From: a virus
Direction: 5' to 3' (one strand)
DNA: 32,049 nucleotides
IMG/VR virus record: IMGVR_UViG_3300013131_000146
Span: 1 to 32,049 of that record
Positions 1 to 19,312 of the stretch are shown here, one piece after another. The notes below the pieces were generated by a model, which saw nothing but the letters and a program-made list of their open reading frames with translations, had not been told where the DNA came from and did not search any database. A program made the position numbers and the translations under genes. The first letter of the stretch is position 1. Every line of letters begins with the position of its first letter.

Positions 1-252
1 ATTATCCAAGCATCAGGCTGTATGTGGATATGGGCAGATGATAGAGCTGGACCTTATGCGGCAGCATCATGGAATGCAAATACTGAAGGTCGCGGTTCGG
101 AATATAATGCGCCTAATGCTGGCCTCTTGGGCGGCCCCTGGGGCGATGGTGCTAACTGCGGGTCGCGTTGCTCGGGTTGGAACAATGCTGCATCTAGCTC
201 GGATAGCGTCATTGGCTCGCGCTTCGCGTGTGACCACTTGCAACTTGATTAG
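1..252 (+). CDS. DGR target protein, C-terminal part (C-type-lectin-like variable domain)
   Basis: The gene is cut by the left edge; the frame is open from base 1 to the TAG at 250-252. The visible 83 residues are rich in Trp, Gly, Asn and Ser, with the pattern LGG-W-GANCGSRCS-WNNAAS-GSRFACD near the end, as in C-terminal CLec folds of DGR target proteins such as Mtd-type receptor-binding proteins. The last part is the variable repeat. Compared with the template, nine codons changed, all altering the residue (Ile to Leu; Asn to Pro, Gly, Asp, Gly, Ser, Asp, Ser, Val). The role inferred is a tail-fibre or receptor-binding protein, because the phage has a lambda-like tail tip and DGRs in phages usually diversify adhesins. 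The N-terminal part, which would name the protein, is outside the window. Two Cys in GANCGSRCS lie in the fixed part and could form a disulphide. Confidence 0.88.
   Translation: MIQASGCMWIWADDRAGPYAAASWNANTEGRGSEYNAPNAGLLGGPWGDGANCGSRCSGWNNAASSSDSVIGSRFACDHLQLD
118..234 (+). repeat. DGR variable repeat (VR)
   Basis: This 117-bp segment aligns without gaps to 662-778. It differs at 124, 136, 137, 142, 143, 145, 175, 176, 197, 202, 206, 208 and 209, and every one of these is an A in the template (9 A to G, 3 A to C, 1 A to T). The last 24 bp (211-234) are identical to the template and GC-rich, which fits the initiation-of-mutagenic-homing end. Identity stops sharply at 235. The left border is within a few bases of 117. 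Confidence 0.96.
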
Positions 253-270
253 AGATGGCGAAAGCCATCT
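253..270 (+). promoter_or_regulatory. GAAA-loop hairpin downstream of VR (DGR target-site cruciform)
   Basis: The arms AGATGGC (253-259) and GCCATCT (264-270) are a perfect 7-bp inverted repeat around a GAAA loop (260-263). It starts one base after the stop codon of the target gene and 18 bases after the VR end. In the Bordetella phage BPP-1 DGR, a hairpin/cruciform with a GAAA loop just after VR is needed for efficient retrohoming; the match here in form and place is seen directly, the function is inferred. TR has no such GAAA hairpin after it. Confidence 0.85.
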
Positions 271-282
271 TGAAGGGCGAAA

Positions 283-657
283 ATGGAAGTTATTAAGGAT
301 GTATCGACTAGCTATGACCAAATGGCAATCATGGAAAAGTATGAAAGATTTATCAATTATATGTATCCCATTGCTCAATCATTGCCAAGAAAACATGGTG
401 TAGCTAGAGATATGTTTTTAAATGCACTATTTGGTCAGGCTGGACTGTTTTACGAAGCAGGAAAGTCTAACCAAGTTAGCAAAATATATGTCGCAGATGC
501 AGGATTGGCGCACTTGCGATTTTGGTTGCGTTTTTTAGTAATGCCCAGCATTCGTGGCATATCTAGTCATCAACATCAAGTAGCTTTAGTGATACTTTCT
601 GAAGTTGGCAATATGCTCGGTGCTTGGGTTGCTAAACGCAAAGGAAAAGATGGGTAA
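283..657 (+). CDS. avd: DGR accessory variability determinant (Avd, four-helix bundle)
   Basis: The 124-aa product has the size and composition of bAvd-family proteins, which form a positively charged pentamer of four-helix bundles that binds the DGR reverse transcriptase and the template RNA. Visible features are long amphipathic helices, a central LRFWLRFL stretch and a C-terminal helix SEVGNMLGAWVAKRKGK ending in basic residues. The start follows an AAGGG Shine-Dalgarno at about 272-276, only a few bases after the GAAA hairpin, so that hairpin could also affect translation. The stop at 655-657 lies five bases before TR, the same avd-TR-RT order as in BPP-1. The family assignment rests on position plus sequence character; I could not run a profile search. 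Confidence 0.85.
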   Translation: MEVIKDVSTSYDQMAIMEKYERFINYMYPIAQSLPRKHGVARDMFLNALFGQAGLFYEAGKSNQVSKIYVADAGLAHLRFWLRFLVMPSIRGISSHQHQVALVILSEVGNMLGAWVAKRKGKDG

Positions 658-661
658 AGAA

Positions 662-778
662 GCTGGCATCTTGGGCGGCAACTGGAACAATGGTGCTAAC
701 TGCGGGTCGCGTTGCTCGAATTGGAACAATGCTGCATCTAACTCGAATAACAACATTGGCTCGCGCTTCGCGTGTGAC
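662..778 (+). repeat. DGR template repeat (TR)
   Basis: This is the invariant donor of VR. It holds 26 adenines, 22 of them in 11 AAC/AAT codons when read in the VR frame, the codon type that gives the widest amino-acid range under A mutagenesis. Thirteen of the 26 have been changed in the present VR. TR begins right after the avd stop and lies between avd and the reverse transcriptase, so it is transcribed as part of the DGR RNA. The open frame that runs through it (605-904) is not considered a gene. Confidence 0.96.
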
Positions 779-922
779 GATAATAATTTATTGCTACATA
801 ACGGCTACGGCTTTATGTGCAGACCTTTAAGTAAGTTATGGTCAGCCGTCTTTTCCTGCTTCGGCAAATACTTTGCTTGGTCTATGATGCCCTTAGTATC
901 GTAAGAGAACGGGGCTAATAGC
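779..922 (+). ncRNA. DGR RNA spacer between TR and the reverse transcriptase
   Basis: This is 144 bp without a convincing gene. In BPP-1 the RNA downstream of TR is needed for cDNA priming and binding by RT-Avd, so this stretch is likely its counterpart. A hairpin ACATAA (796-801)/TTATGT (813-818), extended by GC/GC (793-794 with 819-820, one bulged T at 795), lies 14 bases after TR. A tandem ACGGCT (801-806 and 807-812) can pair with AGCCGT at 844-849 as an alternative. The end carries the GGGG ribosome binding site of the reverse transcriptase. The RNA ends are inferred. Confidence 0.6.
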
Positions 923-1906
923 ATGAATAGTTACAATAACCTTATTGATAAAATCGTCAGTAAGGAAAACATGGAATTAGCTTATAAGCGCACGTCTAAT
1001 GCAAAGCGAATGACATGGGGATATTTAGAATTTAAAGAATATAAGCAAATCAATTTAGATTTGCTTGCTAAAGAGATGGCTAGCGGGGAATATAAGATTG
1101 GCGGTTATCGTGAATTTGTTATTTACGAACCAAAGCCAAGATTGATTTCAGCATTAGACTTTAAAGATAGATTAGTGCAGCACGCTGTAGTGGCAATTAT
1201 AGAGCCTATTTTTGAAGCAACATTTTTGCCTAGCACGTTTGCGTGTAGAAAAGGACTTGGCACTCATGCTGGCGTTAAATACATACAAGCGCAGTTAAGA
1301 AAAGAAAATGCGCCAAAGTTTTATTTGAAAACAGATTTTAGTAAGTTTTTTCCAAGCGTTGACCACAATATATTGCTTGAGATGGTTGATAAAAAGATAA
1401 CCTGCGAGAGAACATTAAAGATAATTAAAGAGATTATTAAGCCTAATGAAGTTGGAATACCAATTGGAAGTTTAACTAGCCAATTATTTGCAAATGTTTA
1501 CGGCTCTAAGTTGGATATGTTTATCCAGCATGAACTAAAATGTAAACAATGGGCAAGATACATGGATGATGTTGTCATCCTAGATAACGATAAAAATAGG
1601 CTATTAGATTATTTTTCAAAGATTAAAGAATTTTCGGAAAGTAATTTAAAGTTAAAAATAAGCAAATGGCACTGCGGAAAAACAAGCAATGGCATTAACT
1701 TTCTTGGATATCGAATATGGAAAACACATAAGCTACTTAGAAAAGATAGTGTTACGAGAGCTAAACGTAAGATAAAATATTACATAACGCATAACAAGTT
1801 GCTTGATTTAGATAAATTTGCTGCTGCATGGGCTGGTCATGCTAGATGGGCAAATACAAATAACCTATATAACTGGATAAGGAAAAAATACAATGTCATC
1901 ATCTAA
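923..1906 (+). CDS. DGR reverse transcriptase
   Basis: This 327-aa protein is a typical compact DGR reverse transcriptase without RNase H or integrase domains. It copies the TR RNA into cDNA with errors at adenines, and the cDNA then replaces VR. Motifs seen: FYLKTDFSKFFPSVD with the catalytic Asp at residue 138 (motif A); IPIGSLTSQ at 179-187, the IGxxxSQ form typical of DGR enzymes rather than the QGxxxSP of group II introns; YMDD at 213-216 (motif C); and a C-terminal thumb with many Lys/Arg. The start follows GGGG at about 911. It is the last gene of the DGR cassette, and its 3' end overlaps the next gene by 14 bases. Motifs are intact, so the element looks active. Confidence 0.96.
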   Translation: MNSYNNLIDKIVSKENMELAYKRTSNAKRMTWGYLEFKEYKQINLDLLAKEMASGEYKIGGYREFVIYEPKPRLISALDFKDRLVQHAVVAIIEPIFEATFLPSTFACRKGLGTHAGVKYIQAQLRKENAPKFYLKTDFSKFFPSVDHNILLEMVDKKITCERTLKIIKEIIKPNEVGIPIGSLTSQLFANVYGSKLDMFIQHELKCKQWARYMDDVVILDNDKNRLLDYFSKIKEFSESNLKLKISKWHCGKTSNGINFLGYRIWKTHKLLRKDSVTRAKRKIKYYITHNKLLDLDKFAAAWAGHARWANTNNLYNWIRKKYNVII

Positions 1907-3340: not shown

Positions 3341-4490
3341 AGGCTTAAAGCAATTCTGTGCTACTGAACGCCAGCGTGAGCATTTAGATGCTTTGCTAGA
3401 ACACGGTTCGTTAAGAAAAGCCGCTAGTGCTTTAGGCGTACACGCAGGCACAATCCAATGCACCATTGATAAAATCAAGAAGCGTGCAGCACTTCAAGGC
3501 TATTCACCCGAACATGACTTAAACAAAGTCGCACCCAGTCCATTTGTCGTGCGTGGATATTCAAATTACTACGACAAAGACGGCAAGCTGCGCGGGCAAT
3601 GGCTGAAAACTAAGGTCGATGATAATAAACTGCAAGCGGTAATGCTTGAAACAATCGAGGCATTAAAAGAGGACATTCCTAGAGTATCGCTTATCAGTCC
3701 ACCGCCACTAGGCAACGACAATCTACTTAACTGCTATGTTATTACTGATTATCATTATGGGATGCTTAGTTGGCAAGAGGAAACTGGCGCAGACTGGGAT
3801 TTAAAAATAGCAGAGGATTTAATTATTAGATGGTTTGGTCAATCTATCCATCAATCGCCCGACGCTAACACAGCAATATTCGCACAATTATCAGACTTTC
3901 TACACTTTGATGGCATGGATGCCGTCACTCCAGCATCAAAACACTTATTAGACGTTGATACGCGTTTCGCAAAAGTTGTGCGTTCAGCTATTCGCATATT
4001 GCGTACAGTCATTGATATGTTGCTGCAAAAGCACCAACACGTTCATGTGCTTATGTTAGATGCCAATCACGACCCTGTATCACAGATTTGGCTTCGTGAA
4101 TGGTTCAATGTTTTTTATGAGAATGAACCACGAGTGACCGTCGATACCAGCCCAAGCCCTTATAATGCTTATGAGTTTGGCAATACGGCATTATTTTTCC
4201 ATCATGGACACAAACGCAACGTCAACAATGTAAGCGAAGTTTTTGCTGCACAATTCCGTGAAATGTTTGGTCGCACGAAATATGCTTATGCGCATTTAGG
4301 GCATTTGCACTCGATAGACGTAAAAGAAAACAATTTGATGGTAGTAGAGCAACATCGAACTTTAGCTGCGCCTGACGCCTACGCTGCACGCGGTGGGTGG
4401 CTTTCTGGTCGTGATGCTAAAGTGATAACGTATGACAAGCGTTTTGGCGAAGTGAGCAGGATTACGATTAACTCTGATATGCTTAAATAG
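3333..4490 (+). CDS. Phage calcineurin-like metallophosphoesterase with N-terminal HTH
   Basis: The 385-aa protein has an N-terminal helix-turn-helix-like part (about residues 10-50: REHLDALLEHGSLRKAASAL). It is followed by a metallophosphoesterase core with the family metal ligands: DYHYG (D-x-H), a conserved QLSDFLHFDGMD, DANHD (the GNHD motif with Ala for Gly), HHGH and GHLH. Related phage proteins are often labelled as SbcD-like nucleases or as exonucleases, but the natural substrate is not established. It closes the lysis-side operon and ends before the AT-rich control region. The Gly-to-Ala change next to Asn in the NHD motif is conservative. Confidence 0.8.
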   Translation: MNEGLKQFCATERQREHLDALLEHGSLRKAASALGVHAGTIQCTIDKIKKRAALQGYSPEHDLNKVAPSPFVVRGYSNYYDKDGKLRGQWLKTKVDDNKLQAVMLETIEALKEDIPRVSLISPPPLGNDNLLNCYVITDYHYGMLSWQEETGADWDLKIAEDLIIRWFGQSIHQSPDANTAIFAQLSDFLHFDGMDAVTPASKHLLDVDTRFAKVVRSAIRILRTVIDMLLQKHQHVHVLMLDANHDPVSQIWLREWFNVFYENEPRVTVDTSPSPYNAYEFGNTALFFHHGHKRNVNNVSEVFAAQFREMFGRTKYAYAHLGHLHSIDVKENNLMVVEQHRTLAAPDAYAARGGWLSGRDAKVITYDKRFGEVSRITINSDMLK

Positions 4491-4625
4491 TCGGTAGTAA
4501 CATATATGTGCCGACATTTAGTTTAAAAATTAACTTATAAGTTAACTCATAGTTTACTAAAACGACAAAATGTAAACCACGATTAACGATTTTTACCAGT
4601 TTTTTGTTGAAAATGCGATTTAACA
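4490..4625. promoter_or_regulatory. AT-rich control region with 16-bp perfect palindrome
   Basis: No gene is seen. TTAACTTATAAGTTAA at 4530-4545 is a perfect 16-bp palindrome, the form of a dimeric repressor site. Close by, GTTTAC (4552-4557) and GTAAAC (4572-4577) form a second inverted repeat, and GTCGG (4490-4494)/CCGAC (4511-4515) brackets the palindrome ACATATATGT. The region is very AT-rich. It could be an operator set, a replication origin, or only transcription-end debris between converging genes. Confidence 0.45.
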
Positions 4626-7939: not shown

Positions 7940-8199
7940 ACAAACAAACTGAAGCATTGAAGATGGCGATTGAAGCGTTGGAAATTGTTATCGTTGCTTA
8001 TGACCAAGATGAACAATTTACTAAAGCAATCCAAGCCTGTAAAGAAGCATTAAAGATGGCGATTGGTTGGGCAGTTGAAGTATATAACGATGAAACCTGC
8101 GCTAAAGACTTGAGAGAAGGTGCAGATGAAGTTATCAACGCTTGCAAAGAAGCATTAGAACAGGAAATAAAAAATGATATTAACACAAGCAATACTTAA
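7936..8199 (+). CDS. N-terminal fragment of a phage protein split by an HNH gene
   Basis: The 87-aa product begins MNKQTEALKMAIEALE and contains two ACKEALxx repeats (QACKEALK at about 34, NACKEALEQ at about 69). In other proteobacterial phages I recall proteins of this style in which ACKEALEQ runs straight on into an EPVAW-type segment. Here the frame ends 25 bases into an HNH endonuclease gene, and the matching segment QEPVACPYPCGW is encoded just after that gene (8622-8981). The last residues (EIKNDINTSNT) are therefore probably read-through into the insert. The function of the family is unknown. Confidence 0.65.
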   Translation: MNKQTEALKMAIEALEIVIVAYDQDEQFTKAIQACKEALKMAIGWAVEVYNDETCAKDLREGADEVINACKEALEQEIKNDINTSNT

Positions 8200-8665
8200 A
8201 GATTTGCTTCACTATGATTCTGAAACAGGTATCTTTACATGGACTGACAATGCTGCGCCTAAAGTAAAAAATACTCGTGCTGGCAGAAAACATAATGATG
8301 GTTATGAATTGATAGCAATTGATTATGTGTCTTATCTATCTCACAGACTTGCTTGGATGTATGTATATGGTGAGTTTCCTAAAAACATGATTGACCATAT
8401 CAACGGAGTTAGAACAGATAATCGCATTGCTAACTTGCGTGAATCAACATTGCAACAAAATAACCATAATAGAAAATTAAACTCTAATAACAAATCAGGC
8501 GTTAAAGGCGTTTATTGGAATAAGCAAAATAAGAGTTGGCATGCAAGAATTAAAGTTAATGGTGTAAACAAACACATTGGCTCATTTAAAAACATTGATG
8601 ATGCAGAAAAGGCGATTAGAAATGAACGAGAAAAATTGCACGGACAATTCGCAAAACATGGTTAG
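8174..8665 (+). CDS. HNH homing endonuclease with AP2 domain
   Basis: The 163-aa protein has the usual free-standing phage layout. The HNH core is at about residues 50-95 (SHRLAWMYVYGEFPKNMIDHINGVRTDNRIANLRE, with the DHINGxxxDNRxxNLR signature). After it comes an AP2-like DNA-binding domain at about 105-150 (SGVKGVYWNKQNKSWHARIKVNGVNKHIGSF). Such enzymes cut DNA to spread their own gene. It starts inside the 3' end of the upstream gene and its end overlaps the downstream start by 44 bases, so it appears inserted in a once continuous gene. There is no room for a group I intron around it. Confidence 0.92.
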   Translation: MILTQAILKDLLHYDSETGIFTWTDNAAPKVKNTRAGRKHNDGYELIAIDYVSYLSHRLAWMYVYGEFPKNMIDHINGVRTDNRIANLRESTLQQNNHNRKLNSNNKSGVKGVYWNKQNKSWHARIKVNGVNKHIGSFKNIDDAEKAIRNEREKLHGQFAKHG

Positions 8666-13412: not shown

Positions 13413-13771
13413 CAGATGTAAATTCAACGCTTGATGAACGTGGCAGTCGCTATGGTTCATTCACTGGTCATGCTGATATTACGCAAGAACTTAAACTCGT
13501 TATTGCATATCATCTGGGCAGTCGCAAAAAACGATTAGCAAATGACCAACAAGAAGCACTCGACATGATTTGCCACAAGATTGGTCGCATCATTAACGGT
13601 GATGCTGACTATGCAGAGAACTTTCGTGATATTGCTGGATATGCTACACTTGTTATGAAGCGGTTACTTGAAACAGATGGTGCAACAGATGCACAAGTAA
13701 CTCATATCAGGCGAGTGGAAGGGGAGTGGCAAGATGAGCAAACTGGAAAAGAAATTACGACTAGCACATAA
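13409..13771 (+). CDS. DUF6378-type phage protein
   Basis: The 120-aa product carries the pattern [24 protein letters not shown], then [42 protein letters not shown], which I recognise from a widespread phage family placed before packaging genes (DUF6378). The fold is helical with conserved His, Asp and Glu that might bind a metal as in nucleotide pyrophosphohydrolases. The role is unproven. Its last 38 bases overlap the following endonuclease-like gene. Confidence 0.78.
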
Positions 13772-14282
13772 GAACATGATTGATAGATGCGTAAATGAGA
13801 AAAATAATTCATTTATACATTATGGCGGTAGAGGAATAAAAGTTTGTGATGATTGGATAGATAAAGAGTCTGGTCGATATAATTTCATAGAATGGGCGTT
13901 GCATAATGGCTTTGAAATTGATAAAAGCCTAGACAGAATTGATACAAATGGGAATTATTCCCCAGATAATTGCAAATGGTCAACCATAAGCGAACAATTA
14001 AATAATCAAAGACGCAATCATAGAATTTTATTTAACGGAAAAACTCAAACTCTGACTCAATGGGCTAATGAACTTGGAATAAATCCCAATACATTGCAAA
14101 GACGCATTGTTAAATACAAGATGGAGATAGATAAGGCATTTACTCCAATTATAAGAACATGGAAGCACGGAACTCGGCAAGGATATGAGTTTCATAAATG
14201 TAGATGCGATGAATGTCGTGAGGCAAATAATAAGCGGCATAGAGATAAGCGAGCAAAAATCAGAAACGGTGAGGTTAAATGA
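13734..14282 (+). CDS. Putative homing-type endonuclease of the LDRID/NCKW family
   Basis: The 182-aa protein has the motif chain HYGGRGIKVCDDW, KSLDRIDTNGNYSPDNCKWSTISEQLNNQRRN, which marks a mobile HNH-like family often free-standing in phages. A C-terminal helix-turn-helix follows (QTLTQWANELGINPNTLQRRI) and a basic Cys-rich end (CRCDECREANNKRHRDKRAK). It overlaps its neighbours on both sides (38 bases before, ATGA after), as expected of an inserted selfish gene. Cleavage activity is not proven by the sequence. Confidence 0.75.
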   Translation: MSKLEKKLRLAHKNMIDRCVNEKNNSFIHYGGRGIKVCDDWIDKESGRYNFIEWALHNGFEIDKSLDRIDTNGNYSPDNCKWSTISEQLNNQRRNHRILFNGKTQTLTQWANELGINPNTLQRRIVKYKMEIDKAFTPIIRTWKHGTRQGYEFHKCRCDECREANNKRHRDKRAKIRNGEVK

Positions 14283-15879: not shown

Positions 15880-17330
15880 ACGACAATAAACATAATGATT
15901 ATGCAGCGTTTGCTGAAAAGTGGTTTAAGACACGCTGCGCTGTTGAGGGACAAACTGCCGTTCATAAAGCTGGCGAGAAATTCCTGCCACGTTTAACAGA
16001 CCAGACCGATAACGATTACAGTTCCTATAAACTACGCGCCACATATTTTAATGCCACAGGTAGAACGCTTGACGGATTAGTCGGCATGGTATTCCGCAAA
16101 GAGATGAAAAAGAATTATCCATCCGCGCTTGAACCATTGATTGACGATATTGATATGGCTGGCAATTCACTCGACATGGTAGCGATGCGAACTATTGGCG
16201 ATGTCATTCAGGTAGGTCGTGCTGGTATCTTAGTGGAATATCCACAAGTTAATGAAGCCCCAGCAAGTCAAGCAGATGTAGTGCGTATGAACCTGCGCCC
16301 TTACACGACATATTATCCTGCCGAGTCTATTCTCGATTGGCGTGTTGAACGAGTGAATAACGTCATGCAACCAGTGATGATTAAACTTGCAGAAACCTAC
16401 GAAATCCAAAAGAATGAGTTTGAATTTGAAACTAAAGAGCAAGTCCGCGCTTTATTGTTGGTTGGCGGATATTATGTGCAGCGCATCTATCGCAAGAACT
16501 CTAAAGGAGATTGGGTTCAGTTTGGTAGCGATATCATTCCGCTTATGCGTGGCATCCCTATTCCGTTTATTCCATTCTGGGCTTTTGGTGCAAAAGAGAA
16601 TTCACTTAATTTACAAGACCCGCCAATCCTAGACCTAGCAGATATGAACTTAGCGCACTATCGTATTAGTGCTGACTATGAACGCGGCTGTCACTTTGCT
16701 GGCTTGCCTACACCTATCTTAGCTGGTTTCATGTTTGACGAAGGTGCAAAGATATCACTAGGCTCAACGACTGCGCTTGTAACACCTGACGCTACGGCTA
16801 AATGGGGCTTCTTAGAATTTACTGGGCAAGGTCTAACTTCACTTAAAGACAATCTAAAAGAAAAACAATCACAGATGGCTGCGCTTGGCTCTCGTATTCT
16901 CGCACCTGAAAAATCAGGCGTTGAATCAGAGGGTGCTTTGCTTATCCGTCACAGTGGCGAGAACAGCGTATTGTCTGCCATCGTAGAACTTGCGTCAGAG
17001 AACTTTGAGCAAATCATTACGTTTATGGGTGATTGGCAAAACGTGACAGGCGATGTTGAAATCGACTTCAACAAAGACTTCTTGCCAGTGCCAATGAATG
17101 CACAGCAACTCGACTCACTCATGAAAGCATGGCAGGCTGGCGGTATTCCACAAGAGGAACTATTCCACGCATTGAAACGAGGAGAAGTAATCCGTAATGA
17201 GGTTACTTATGACGAATATCTAACTGGCATCGAAACAGATACCGAAACATCTATCGGTGGCGTTGCTGAACCTGACGAACCTGACACGGGCGGAGTGTTA
17301 TCACAACTTAGACAGCGTTTAGGTCTATGA
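15876..17330 (+). CDS. Portal protein (DUF4055 family)
   Basis: The 484-aa product matches DUF4055 portal-like proteins: HKAGEKFLPRLTDQTDNDYSSYKLRATYFNATGRTLDGLVGMVFRK near the start, RAGILVEYP, LRPYTTYYPAESILDWR, and LADMNLAHYRISADYERG in the middle. It forms the dodecameric ring at the head vertex through which DNA passes. Its place right after terL is standard. The C-terminal tail (from about residue 455) is acidic. The stop overlaps the next start. Confidence 0.9.
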   Translation: MNDNKHNDYAAFAEKWFKTRCAVEGQTAVHKAGEKFLPRLTDQTDNDYSSYKLRATYFNATGRTLDGLVGMVFRKEMKKNYPSALEPLIDDIDMAGNSLDMVAMRTIGDVIQVGRAGILVEYPQVNEAPASQADVVRMNLRPYTTYYPAESILDWRVERVNNVMQPVMIKLAETYEIQKNEFEFETKEQVRALLLVGGYYVQRIYRKNSKGDWVQFGSDIIPLMRGIPIPFIPFWAFGAKENSLNLQDPPILDLADMNLAHYRISADYERGCHFAGLPTPILAGFMFDEGAKISLGSTTALVTPDATAKWGFLEFTGQGLTSLKDNLKEKQSQMAALGSRILAPEKSGVESEGALLIRHSGENSVLSAIVELASENFEQIITFMGDWQNVTGDVEIDFNKDFLPVPMNAQQLDSLMKAWQAGGIPQEELFHALKRGEVIRNEVTYDEYLTGIETDTETSIGGVAEPDEPDTGGVLSQLRQRLGL

Positions 17331-19312
17331 ACGAACTTATCGCCTTATTAACAGAGGCACTTGCCAAACTTAAAGACCGCTTCGATGCGCTAGAGGCTAT
17401 TACGCCACAAAAAGGCGACAATGGCGAACGCGGTGAGAAAGGTGACAAGGGAGATAAAGGCGAACGTGGGGAAAAAGGCGAGCAAGGTGAACGTGGGATT
17501 AAAGGCGATATTGGTCTAAAAGGCGACAAAGGCGAACGTGGCGAAGCTGGCAAAAACGGCTTAAAAGGCGACAATGGCGATAAAGGTGATGCTGGCAAAG
17601 ACGGAAAAGACGGCAAAGATGGTCGTGACGGCATCAACGGAAAAGATGGTCGCAATGGTGCAGATGGACTAACCATTAAAGGTGATAAAGGTGATAAGCC
17701 AAATCACGAATGGAAAGGCACCAGCATTCGCTTTGAATTGCCAGATGGAAAATGGGGAAAGTTTGTTGACTTACAAGGTCGTGATGGTATTGGTCGTTTT
17801 TTAGGTGGCGCAAGTGGACTGCAAGTTATTACATCAAGTGACAGCTCGATTGTCGTTACCCAAAACGGGCAAAATGTAGATTTAACTGTATCGCAAGAAT
17901 CGCCAGCATCTAATATCGTCAAACAAGTACGCAATGAAACAGGCGCAACACTCGTTAAAGGCACAGTCGTTTATATCAATGGCGCATCTGGCAATAAAGC
18001 CACTGTCACTAAAGCAATTGCCACAGGTGATGCAACATCGGCACAGACACTCGGTATTATCACTAACGACATTCTTACAAATCAAAATGGATATGTGACT
18101 GTATTCGGTTCGATTGTTGGGATTAACACGTCTGCATTTGCTAATGGCGCACAATTATATTTAAGCGCGACAACGGCTGGAACATTTACTGATGTTAAAC
18201 AATACGCGCCTGCGCATTTAGTTTATGTCGGCATCGTAACTCGCAGCCATCAAAATCAAGGTTCAATTGAGGTCAATATCCAAAACGGTTATGAACTCGA
18301 GGAACTTCATAACGTAAGCATCAATCCAGCAACGTTAGCGAATGATGACTCACTTAGATATGATGCAGCGACAGGTCTTTGGAAAAACAAGGCTGGCGGT
18401 GGCAGTTCAGGTTCTGTCACAAGCGTGGCATTGTCTGCGCCACTTGGCTTTGAGGTTGCTGGCAGTCCAATCACATCGACAGGCACGCTTGCGCTTTCGT
18501 TTGCTACTGGATATTCACTGCCAACTAATACGAAGCAAGCACAATGGGATACAGCGTACTCTTGGGGTAATCATGCCAGCGCAGGATATTTGACCAGTAT
18601 TAGTGGCGCAATGGTCACTGGCGCACTCGGTTTCATGCCATATAATGCAACTAATCCAGCAGGCTACATTAGCACCGAAACAGACCCAGTTTTTACAGCG
18701 CACGCTGCTTATGGTGTAACGCTGACCAAAATCGGAAACTGGGACACCGCCTTCGGATGGGGCAATCATGCGCTTGCTGGATACTTAACATCTGTTTCAT
18801 GGTCAATTATCTCTGGTAAACCTACATTTGCAACGGTGGCAACAAGTGGCGCATATGCTGATTTGTCAGGAACGCCAACAATTCCATCTAAAACAAGCGA
18901 TTTAACTAACGATAGCGGGTTCATTACTGGATATACTGAAACTGACCCTGTATTTGTTGCTCATGCTGCTTATGGTGTCACTTTGACAAAGATTGGTAAT
19001 TGGGATGCTGCCTATTCATGGGGGAATCATGCAAGTGCTGGTTATTTAACAAGCGTTTCGTGGAGTATAATCACTGGTAAACCATCATTTGCGACAGTGG
19101 CGACTACAGGCGCATATTCTGATTTGATTGGTAAGCCAACTATTCCGACAAAGACTAGCGACCTAACAAATGACAGTGGATTTATCACATCGGTGGCAAA
19201 GACGCTGCCTATTATGATTAGAAACACTACAGTTACATCGGTCAACGTGGCTTTAGGGTATCTGGCTATTTTGAATAGAAGTGGCTCAACAATTAACGTG
19301 GCGATTGTGTAA
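17327..19312 (+). CDS. Collagen-like fibre protein in the head gene cluster
   Basis: The 661-aa protein opens with a short helix (residues 1-28). Then come 28 unbroken Gly-X-Y triplets (30-113), mostly G-(D/E)-(K/R), a bacterial/phage collagen-like triple helix. A beta-rich middle (about 130-330) follows, and then repeats: an 87-residue unit starting TETDPVF occurs at 450-536 and again from 537, with three YSWGNHA-AGYLTS elements near 410, 476 and 563. These repeats are typical of phage tail-fibre shafts. The gene, however, lies between portal and MuF, so it may be a head fibre or decoration, or a tail fibre moved here. It overlaps the portal gene by four bases. Confidence 0.85.
   Translation: MNELIALLTEALAKLKDRFDALEAITPQKGDNGERGEKGDKGDKGERGEKGEQGERGIKGDIGLKGDKGERGEAGKNGLKGDNGDKGDAGKDGKDGKDGRDGINGKDGRNGADGLTIKGDKGDKPNHEWKGTSIRFELPDGKWGKFVDLQGRDGIGRFLGGASGLQVITSSDSSIVVTQNGQNVDLTVSQESPASNIVKQVRNETGATLVKGTVVYINGASGNKATVTKAIATGDATSAQTLGIITNDILTNQNGYVTVFGSIVGINTSAFANGAQLYLSATTAGTFTDVKQYAPAHLVYVGIVTRSHQNQGSIEVNIQNGYELEELHNVSINPATLANDDSLRYDAATGLWKNKAGGGSSGSVTSVALSAPLGFEVAGSPITSTGTLALSFATGYSLPTNTKQAQWDTAYSWGNHASAGYLTSISGAMVTGALGFMPYNATNPAGYISTETDPVFTAHAAYGVTLTKIGNWDTAFGWGNHALAGYLTSVSWSIISGKPTFATVATSGAYADLSGTPTIPSKTSDLTNDSGFITGYTETDPVFVAHAAYGVTLTKIGNWDAAYSWGNHASAGYLTSVSWSIITGKPSFATVATTGAYSDLIGKPTIPTKTSDLTNDSGFITSVAKTLPIMIRNTTVTSVNVALGYLAILNRSGSTINVAIV

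Follow-up and report, generated by a model that had tools for sequence, protein, structure and literature searches.

Record IMGVR_UViG_3300013131_000146 of IMG/VR was analyzed in its entirety (32,049 bp, classed as linear; hereafter the window), and we have very little doubt that it carries at its left end a diversity-generating retroelement (DGR) of the BPP-1 type, by which a siphovirus-like phage diversifies the lectin-like domain at the C-terminus of a receptor-binding tail protein of the Mtd type. Elements of this kind were discovered in a Bordetella phage, where random changes are introduced into the tip of the host-binding protein. The target gene with its variable repeat (VR), avd, the template repeat (TR), and the reverse transcriptase (RT) gene follow one another on the plus strand, as do the hairpin, spacer RNA, and bbp4 homologue described below. 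This order, which the first-pass annotation had likened to that of BPP-1, agrees with the mtd-avd/bbp7-TR-brt arrangement down to a fifth part, a bbp4 gene overlapping the stop codon of the RT gene, and Mtd, Avd, and Brt all have homologues here. The same annotation had called the DGR complete, which is true of avd, TR, RT, and VR, and of the hairpin described below, but not of the target gene: the two ends of the record lie in gene J and in mtd, which leaves the 5′ part of the target outside it. Missing from it were the IMH-like end of VR, the hairpin at 253-270, the spacer RNA at 793-922, and the linked gene at 1893-2138.

With a known type of DGR, a known RNA family, and a place in a catalogued class of phage DGRs, the element is an ordinary member of a widespread family, and the picture of how DGRs work is unchanged by it. 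It adds a well-preserved BPP-1-type member in which all of the cis elements are identified, and the BPP-1 type is spread widely over uncultured phages, siphovirus-like ones included. About 80 homologous cassettes offer natural tests that go beyond BPP-1 alone, namely RNA covariation, VR turnover, and DGR-free mtd-bbp4 loci. Metagenomic phage DGRs target host-attachment proteins and are broadly active in nature (Roux et al. 2021, PMC8144416), and like those in that catalogue the DGR of the window is a phage DGR aimed at a host-attachment protein.

The variable and template repeats

VR (118-234), in the C-type-lectin-like C-terminus of the Mtd homologue, and TR (662-778) form an ungapped 117-nt direct repeat, 89% identical and 544 bp apart, and the first 3 kb contain no other long one. 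The two copies differ at 13 positions, every one of them an adenine in TR (nine A to G, three A to C, and one A to T), such that 13 of the 26 TR adenines are changed in VR and none of the 91 other bases. The hypergeometric probability that 13 mismatches would all be placed on adenines is 1.7 × 10⁻¹⁰. A recount reproduced exactly the coordinates and counts of the first-pass annotation, including the 11 AAY codons in TR.

Nine codons differ between VR and TR and the encoded residue is altered in all nine, which had been taken as a mark of selection. However, 11 of the 15 adenine-bearing codons in TR are AAY, and because any change at the two adenines of AAY is non-synonymous, an altered residue in nine of nine codons follows largely from the design of the codons and is no sign of selection. 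The theoretical space of 4 to the power 26 stands as a ceiling for DNA (4.5 × 10¹⁵), but not for proteins, for which the ceiling is about 5.5 × 10¹⁴ because each AAY codon yields 15 amino acids under adenine mutation, and never a stop codon; the protein ceiling would be lower still if the last TR adenine, beside the priming end, escapes mutation. Unlike that of BPP-1, the TR of the window has both AAC and AAT codons.

The target gene and cis elements at VR

The target gene is represented by its C-terminal 83 codons (1-252), a frame that is open throughout and truncated by the left edge of the record. Over its entire length the fragment aligns with residues 299-380 of the BPP-1 major tropism determinant, Mtd (1yu4; phmmer, E = 2.2 × 10⁻¹⁸), matches the tail protein family phrog_11262, and is 71% identical to the mtd product of the relative L012, which lies on contig G001. 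From its match to the C-terminal domain of 1yu4, the variable domain is predicted to be C-type-lectin-like.

The 3′ end of VR and the remainder of the gene (214-252) make up an IMH-like segment, consisting of GGCTCGCGCTTCGCGTGTGAC, which is common to TR, followed by CACTTGCAACTTGATTAG, which is absent from TR. Set side by side with the VR and TR of BPP-1 and of about 70 relatives, GGCTCGCGCTTCGCGTGTGAC-CACTTGCAACTTGATTAG matches the BPP-1 IMH TGTGACCACCTGATTCTTGAGTAG, and the two share the form TGTGACCACYTG...CTTGA.TAG. The homology between VR and TR stops at GTGTGAC, such that IMH differs from IMH*, and it is the VR side that matches the BPP-1 IMH. The divergence from IMH* is complete, whereas in BPP-1 there are five mismatches in 21.

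Directly after the mtd stop codon, and starting 18 bp past VR, is an inverted repeat (253-270) with a perfect 7-bp stem (AGATGGC/GCCATCT) and a GAAA loop, a target-site DNA hairpin or cruciform with a predicted DNA folding energy of −7.2 kcal/mol (z = −4.2). BPP-1 has a GAAA-loop hairpin in the same position just past the target stop. BPP-1 requires such a hairpin or cruciform to home efficiently (Guo et al., PMC3240598), and the published rule is a GC-rich stem of 7-10 bp and a GRNA loop, at a distance of 4-34 bp from the end of VR. The GAAA loop of the window fits 5′-GRNA; its stem has G-C in four of seven pairs and is less GC-rich than the published stems, including that of BPP-1. TR has neither the IMH sequence nor the hairpin.

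avd, reverse transcriptase and spacer RNA

The avd gene (accessory variability determinant; 283-657) encodes an intact product of 124 aa that matches Pfam bAvd (4 × 10⁻²⁷), scores above the cut-off of NCBIfam NF033474, and aligns to the solved Bbp7 chain (PDB 4dwl) with E = 4.5 × 10⁻⁴⁴. The RT gene (923-1906) encodes a 327-aa orthologue of Brt, as indicated by Pfam RVT_1, by comparison with BPP-1 Brt and PDB 8ub7, by alignment, and by phylogeny. Rereading of the frames and motifs bears out the earlier description of both genes as intact, the RT retaining TDFSKFF, GIPIGSLTSQ, and the catalytic YMDD. Compared with the BPP-1 proteins, Avd is 59% identical and the RT is 55.6% identical over 98% of its length.

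Sequence comparison places the enzyme among DGR RTs: it scores 407 bits against the solved Brt (8ub7) compared with 71 bits for the best group II intron RT, and it matches phrog_1423. In a maximum-likelihood tree it groups with L012 and L013 in a set of 14 rows, all of them inside the BPP-1-type clade.

Between TR and the RT gene lies the DGR spacer RNA (793-922), which matches Rfam RF03022 (Phage_DGR) over its full length (1-127 of 127) with 84.7 bits (gathering threshold 50) and E = 2.3 × 10⁻¹³; BPP-1 likewise has a structured spacer RNA. The subclade of the window departs from RF03022 in a shorter 3′ helix region, in which ATGCCC...GGGCT replaces GGCATAACGC...GCGNGGCC. Alignment of 46 relatives gives five helices with compensatory changes and a 25-pair consensus in which 97% of cells form standard pairs. 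Compensatory changes occur at 19 of the 25 pairs, a level matched by none of 500 shuffles, and structures slid along the alignment are 26-43% paired, which argues that the spacer RNA is under structural selection. From the RF03022 match and the covariation the spacer is presumably a structured RNA that recruits RT-Avd, with binding as in BPP-1.

Activity and alternative readings of the locus

A profile search of viral contigs yielded 80 loci with an RT 54-73% identical to that of the window, and nearly all of those on a long enough contig have mtd, avd, TR, and RT in the same order, followed by bbp4. The IMG/VR relatives L012 to L017 (RT 65-73% identical) have the same cassette; L012 sits in a partly syntenic lambda-like phage, G001, but the flanking early and lysis genes are mostly unshared.

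The BPP-1-type clade diversifies VR in nature, because in close pairs, with RTs near-identical and TRs the same or nearly so, the VRs show 12-18 differences, of which nearly all are at template adenines. The RTs of L022 and L024 are 99.6% identical and their TRs are the same, and their VRs have 16 differences, all at template A. L002 and L052 have a single difference in 966 bp of the RT gene and the 541 bp preceding VR are the same in both, while their VRs have 18 differences at A and two elsewhere; L044, L045, and L046 show the same behavior. Over 68 VR/TR pairs, 954 of 1766 template adenines differ (54%) compared with 82 of 5513 other bases (1.5%); the segment finder was tolerant of mismatches at A, which biases this total toward A.

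Judging from its intact parts and from these near relatives, the copy in the window is probably working as well. The alternative, that this is a genuine DGR which is dead in the window phage, with VR a record of past events, strikes us as unlikely. It has in its favor that activity of this particular copy is argued by analogy, that avd and RT were not found in some contigs with mtd-bbp4, and that L018, a member of a sister clade, has a TR depleted of adenines (9 compared with 29), from which it seems that cassettes may be lost or damaged. However, the three reading frames, catalytic motif, spacer RNA, IMH, and hairpin of the window are all intact, TR keeps its 26 adenines, and VR and TR have accumulated no differences at bases other than A, which points to recent copying.

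The depleted segment in L018, at the TR position (4385-4496; compare its sister L019), resembles an already mutated VR copy, and may be an assembly chimera or a VR-to-TR conversion. An exact 29-base avd probe found no second contig of the window phage in a collection from which very near records may be absent, an 18-base VR/TR probe had its sole match in an unrelated phage contig (L008), and a host search by RT genome scan returned distant RTs only (L010 and L011).

Assembly breaks may mark hypervariable sites: among the left ends of 45 contigs, eight lie within a 140-bp stretch around VR, where 1.2 would be expected (P = 2 × 10⁻⁵), and there is no such pile-up in TR (two ends). Left ends inside VR were noted in L003, L013, L021, L037, L042, L056, L073, and L084. 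The left end of the window itself, 117 bp before VR, falls within a second small cluster of contig ends. That the DGR was joined to unrelated DNA at this end by an assembly artefact is highly improbable. The record does begin within mtd and end within J, and IMG/VR gives it as linear, but in the 41.7-kb contig G001 the genes run in the order terminase, capsid, tail, J, mtd, avd, RT, and bbp4, the last five contiguous. This is the order given by joining the two ends of the window, the J and mtd matches being about 4.2 kb apart in G001, and the break is accounted for by circular permutation and hypervariability. Because the gene order of G001 is that of the joined ends, the best reading of the window is a permuted genome of roughly 36 kb from which a little is missing.

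Poorer still is the reading in which VR and TR arose by ordinary tandem duplication of a gene, have since drifted apart under selection and chance, and have no connection with the RT next to them. TR does have an in-frame reading, with a translation similar to the lectin domain, but the confinement of the mismatches to adenines, at the probability given above, refutes a duplication, and the RF03022 spacer RNA and an identical anatomy in about 80 contigs and in the experimentally proven BPP-1 also speak against it. Scarcely any probability attaches either to the RT being that of a group II intron, a retron, or a defence system and adjoining the repeat by chance, a reading that the sequence refutes, since the weak matches to NCBIfam models are all below their curated cut-offs (group II RT/maturase TIGR04416, the best, 121 against 300 bits; retron St85, 54 against 235 bits; Drt models), whereas the score to Brt, the GIPIGxLTSQ motif, the adjoining avd and RF03022 RNA, and the position in the tree all belong to the BPP-1 type.

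A proposed mechanism of mutagenic homing

For BPP-1, spacer-primed cDNA synthesis, misincorporation opposite adenines, and hairpin-assisted homing are established (PMC12875486, PMC3240598). By extension from BPP-1 to the window phage, RT together with an Avd pentamer would bind an RNA that spans the end of avd, TR, and the structured spacer, and an adenine in this spacer would prime cDNA synthesis at the 3′ end of TR, at IMH*. RT would misincorporate opposite template adenines, and the cDNA would replace VR, guided by IMH and the GAAA hairpin past the mtd stop. TR would be kept unchanged because it is without the VR-side IMH sequence and hairpin, which would explain the one-way transfer. The predicted outcome is a population of virions with differing receptor-binding surfaces, mostly at the 11 AAY codons.

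In E. coli the BPP-1 bRT has a strong NAC context bias (PMC12875486). Among 65 natural VR/TR pairs we found no difference between the substitution spectra of AAC and AAT codons (p = 0.87 and 0.75), AAT contributing only 81 codons. Because the spectra are alike despite the bias in E. coli, errors made in nature, or by these enzymes, do not simply follow the laboratory profile of BPP-1.

bbp4 and mtd loci without a DGR

The gene that overlaps the RT stop by 14 bases (1893-2138) encodes an 81-aa homologue of Bbp4, 63-65% identical to Bbp4 of BPP-1-like phages, and is a tail-locus gene linked to mtd; no Bbp4 match was found in the 'phages' database beyond the BPP-1-like phages. In every relative sequenced far enough, bbp4 comes after RT. 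Scanning with the bbp4 alignment gave 75 loci with enough upstream sequence, of which 59 have RT upstream and 16 have mtd upstream without avd or RT between. For most of these 16, the start of bbp4 is no more than about 20 bp from the end of the mtd match; mtd closely followed by bbp4 was noted in L093, L101, L102, L114, L115, L128, L129, L130, L131, L147, L148, and L153. No RT was found elsewhere in 15 of the 16 records, most of which are fragments, in a search run without a positive control.

These 16 loci rule out bbp4 as a fourth DGR component and place it in the mtd tail locus. Because bbp4 follows mtd also where avd-TR-RT is absent, the hairpin-avd-TR-RT unit looks, from the gene arrangements compared, like an optional insert between the tail genes mtd and bbp4. 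We would go further with only even confidence, namely that the DGR may be a removable cartridge that has been gained or lost many times at the mtd-bbp4 junction. If so, related phages exist with frozen and with self-mutating receptor-binding proteins. L129 keeps AGTAGCGGGGCCGA, the left arm of a BPP-1-like hairpin, before bbp4, possibly as a deletion scar.

L096 (1526-3940) contains two full-length tandem mtd genes (383 and 384 aa) with differing C-termini and has bbp4 after the second copy; no RT was found in this contig. Its kin among the 16 loci (L097, L099, and L100) apparently also have two mtd genes in tandem, as read in L096.

The short form of the bbp4 product is predicted to fold with a pLDDT of 88.5, and its model has no structural match in PDB or BFVD. 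Longer forms (about 140-170 aa) have an extra C-terminal domain, which in some matches phrog_6034; these are found in L003, L039, L054, L060, L061, L065, L066, L072, L074, L076, L078, L082, L083, L087, L088, and L089. Where scanned against family libraries, the bbp4 N-terminal domain was unmatched.

Other features of the phage genome

The tail genes (L, K-like, I-like, J, tape measure, and tube) are of the lambda/siphovirus type, in agreement with the lambda-like tail proposed in the first-pass annotation, and the coat protein is P22-like. The phage differs in its lambda-type tail genes from BPP-1, which is a podovirus.

Between portal-type and Mu-F-like genes, the window encodes a 661-aa protein with collagen-like Gly-X-Y repeats (17327-19312), and the gene has internal repeats around 18677-18900. 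The early region includes an HNH endonuclease gene (8174-8665) and a small gene (13734-14282) that is homing-endonuclease-like by eye and without a Pfam match. Downstream of the DGR is a CHAP-type lysin-like gene (2383-2868), the product of which resembles the C-terminal part of a tail lysozyme (phrog_1259).
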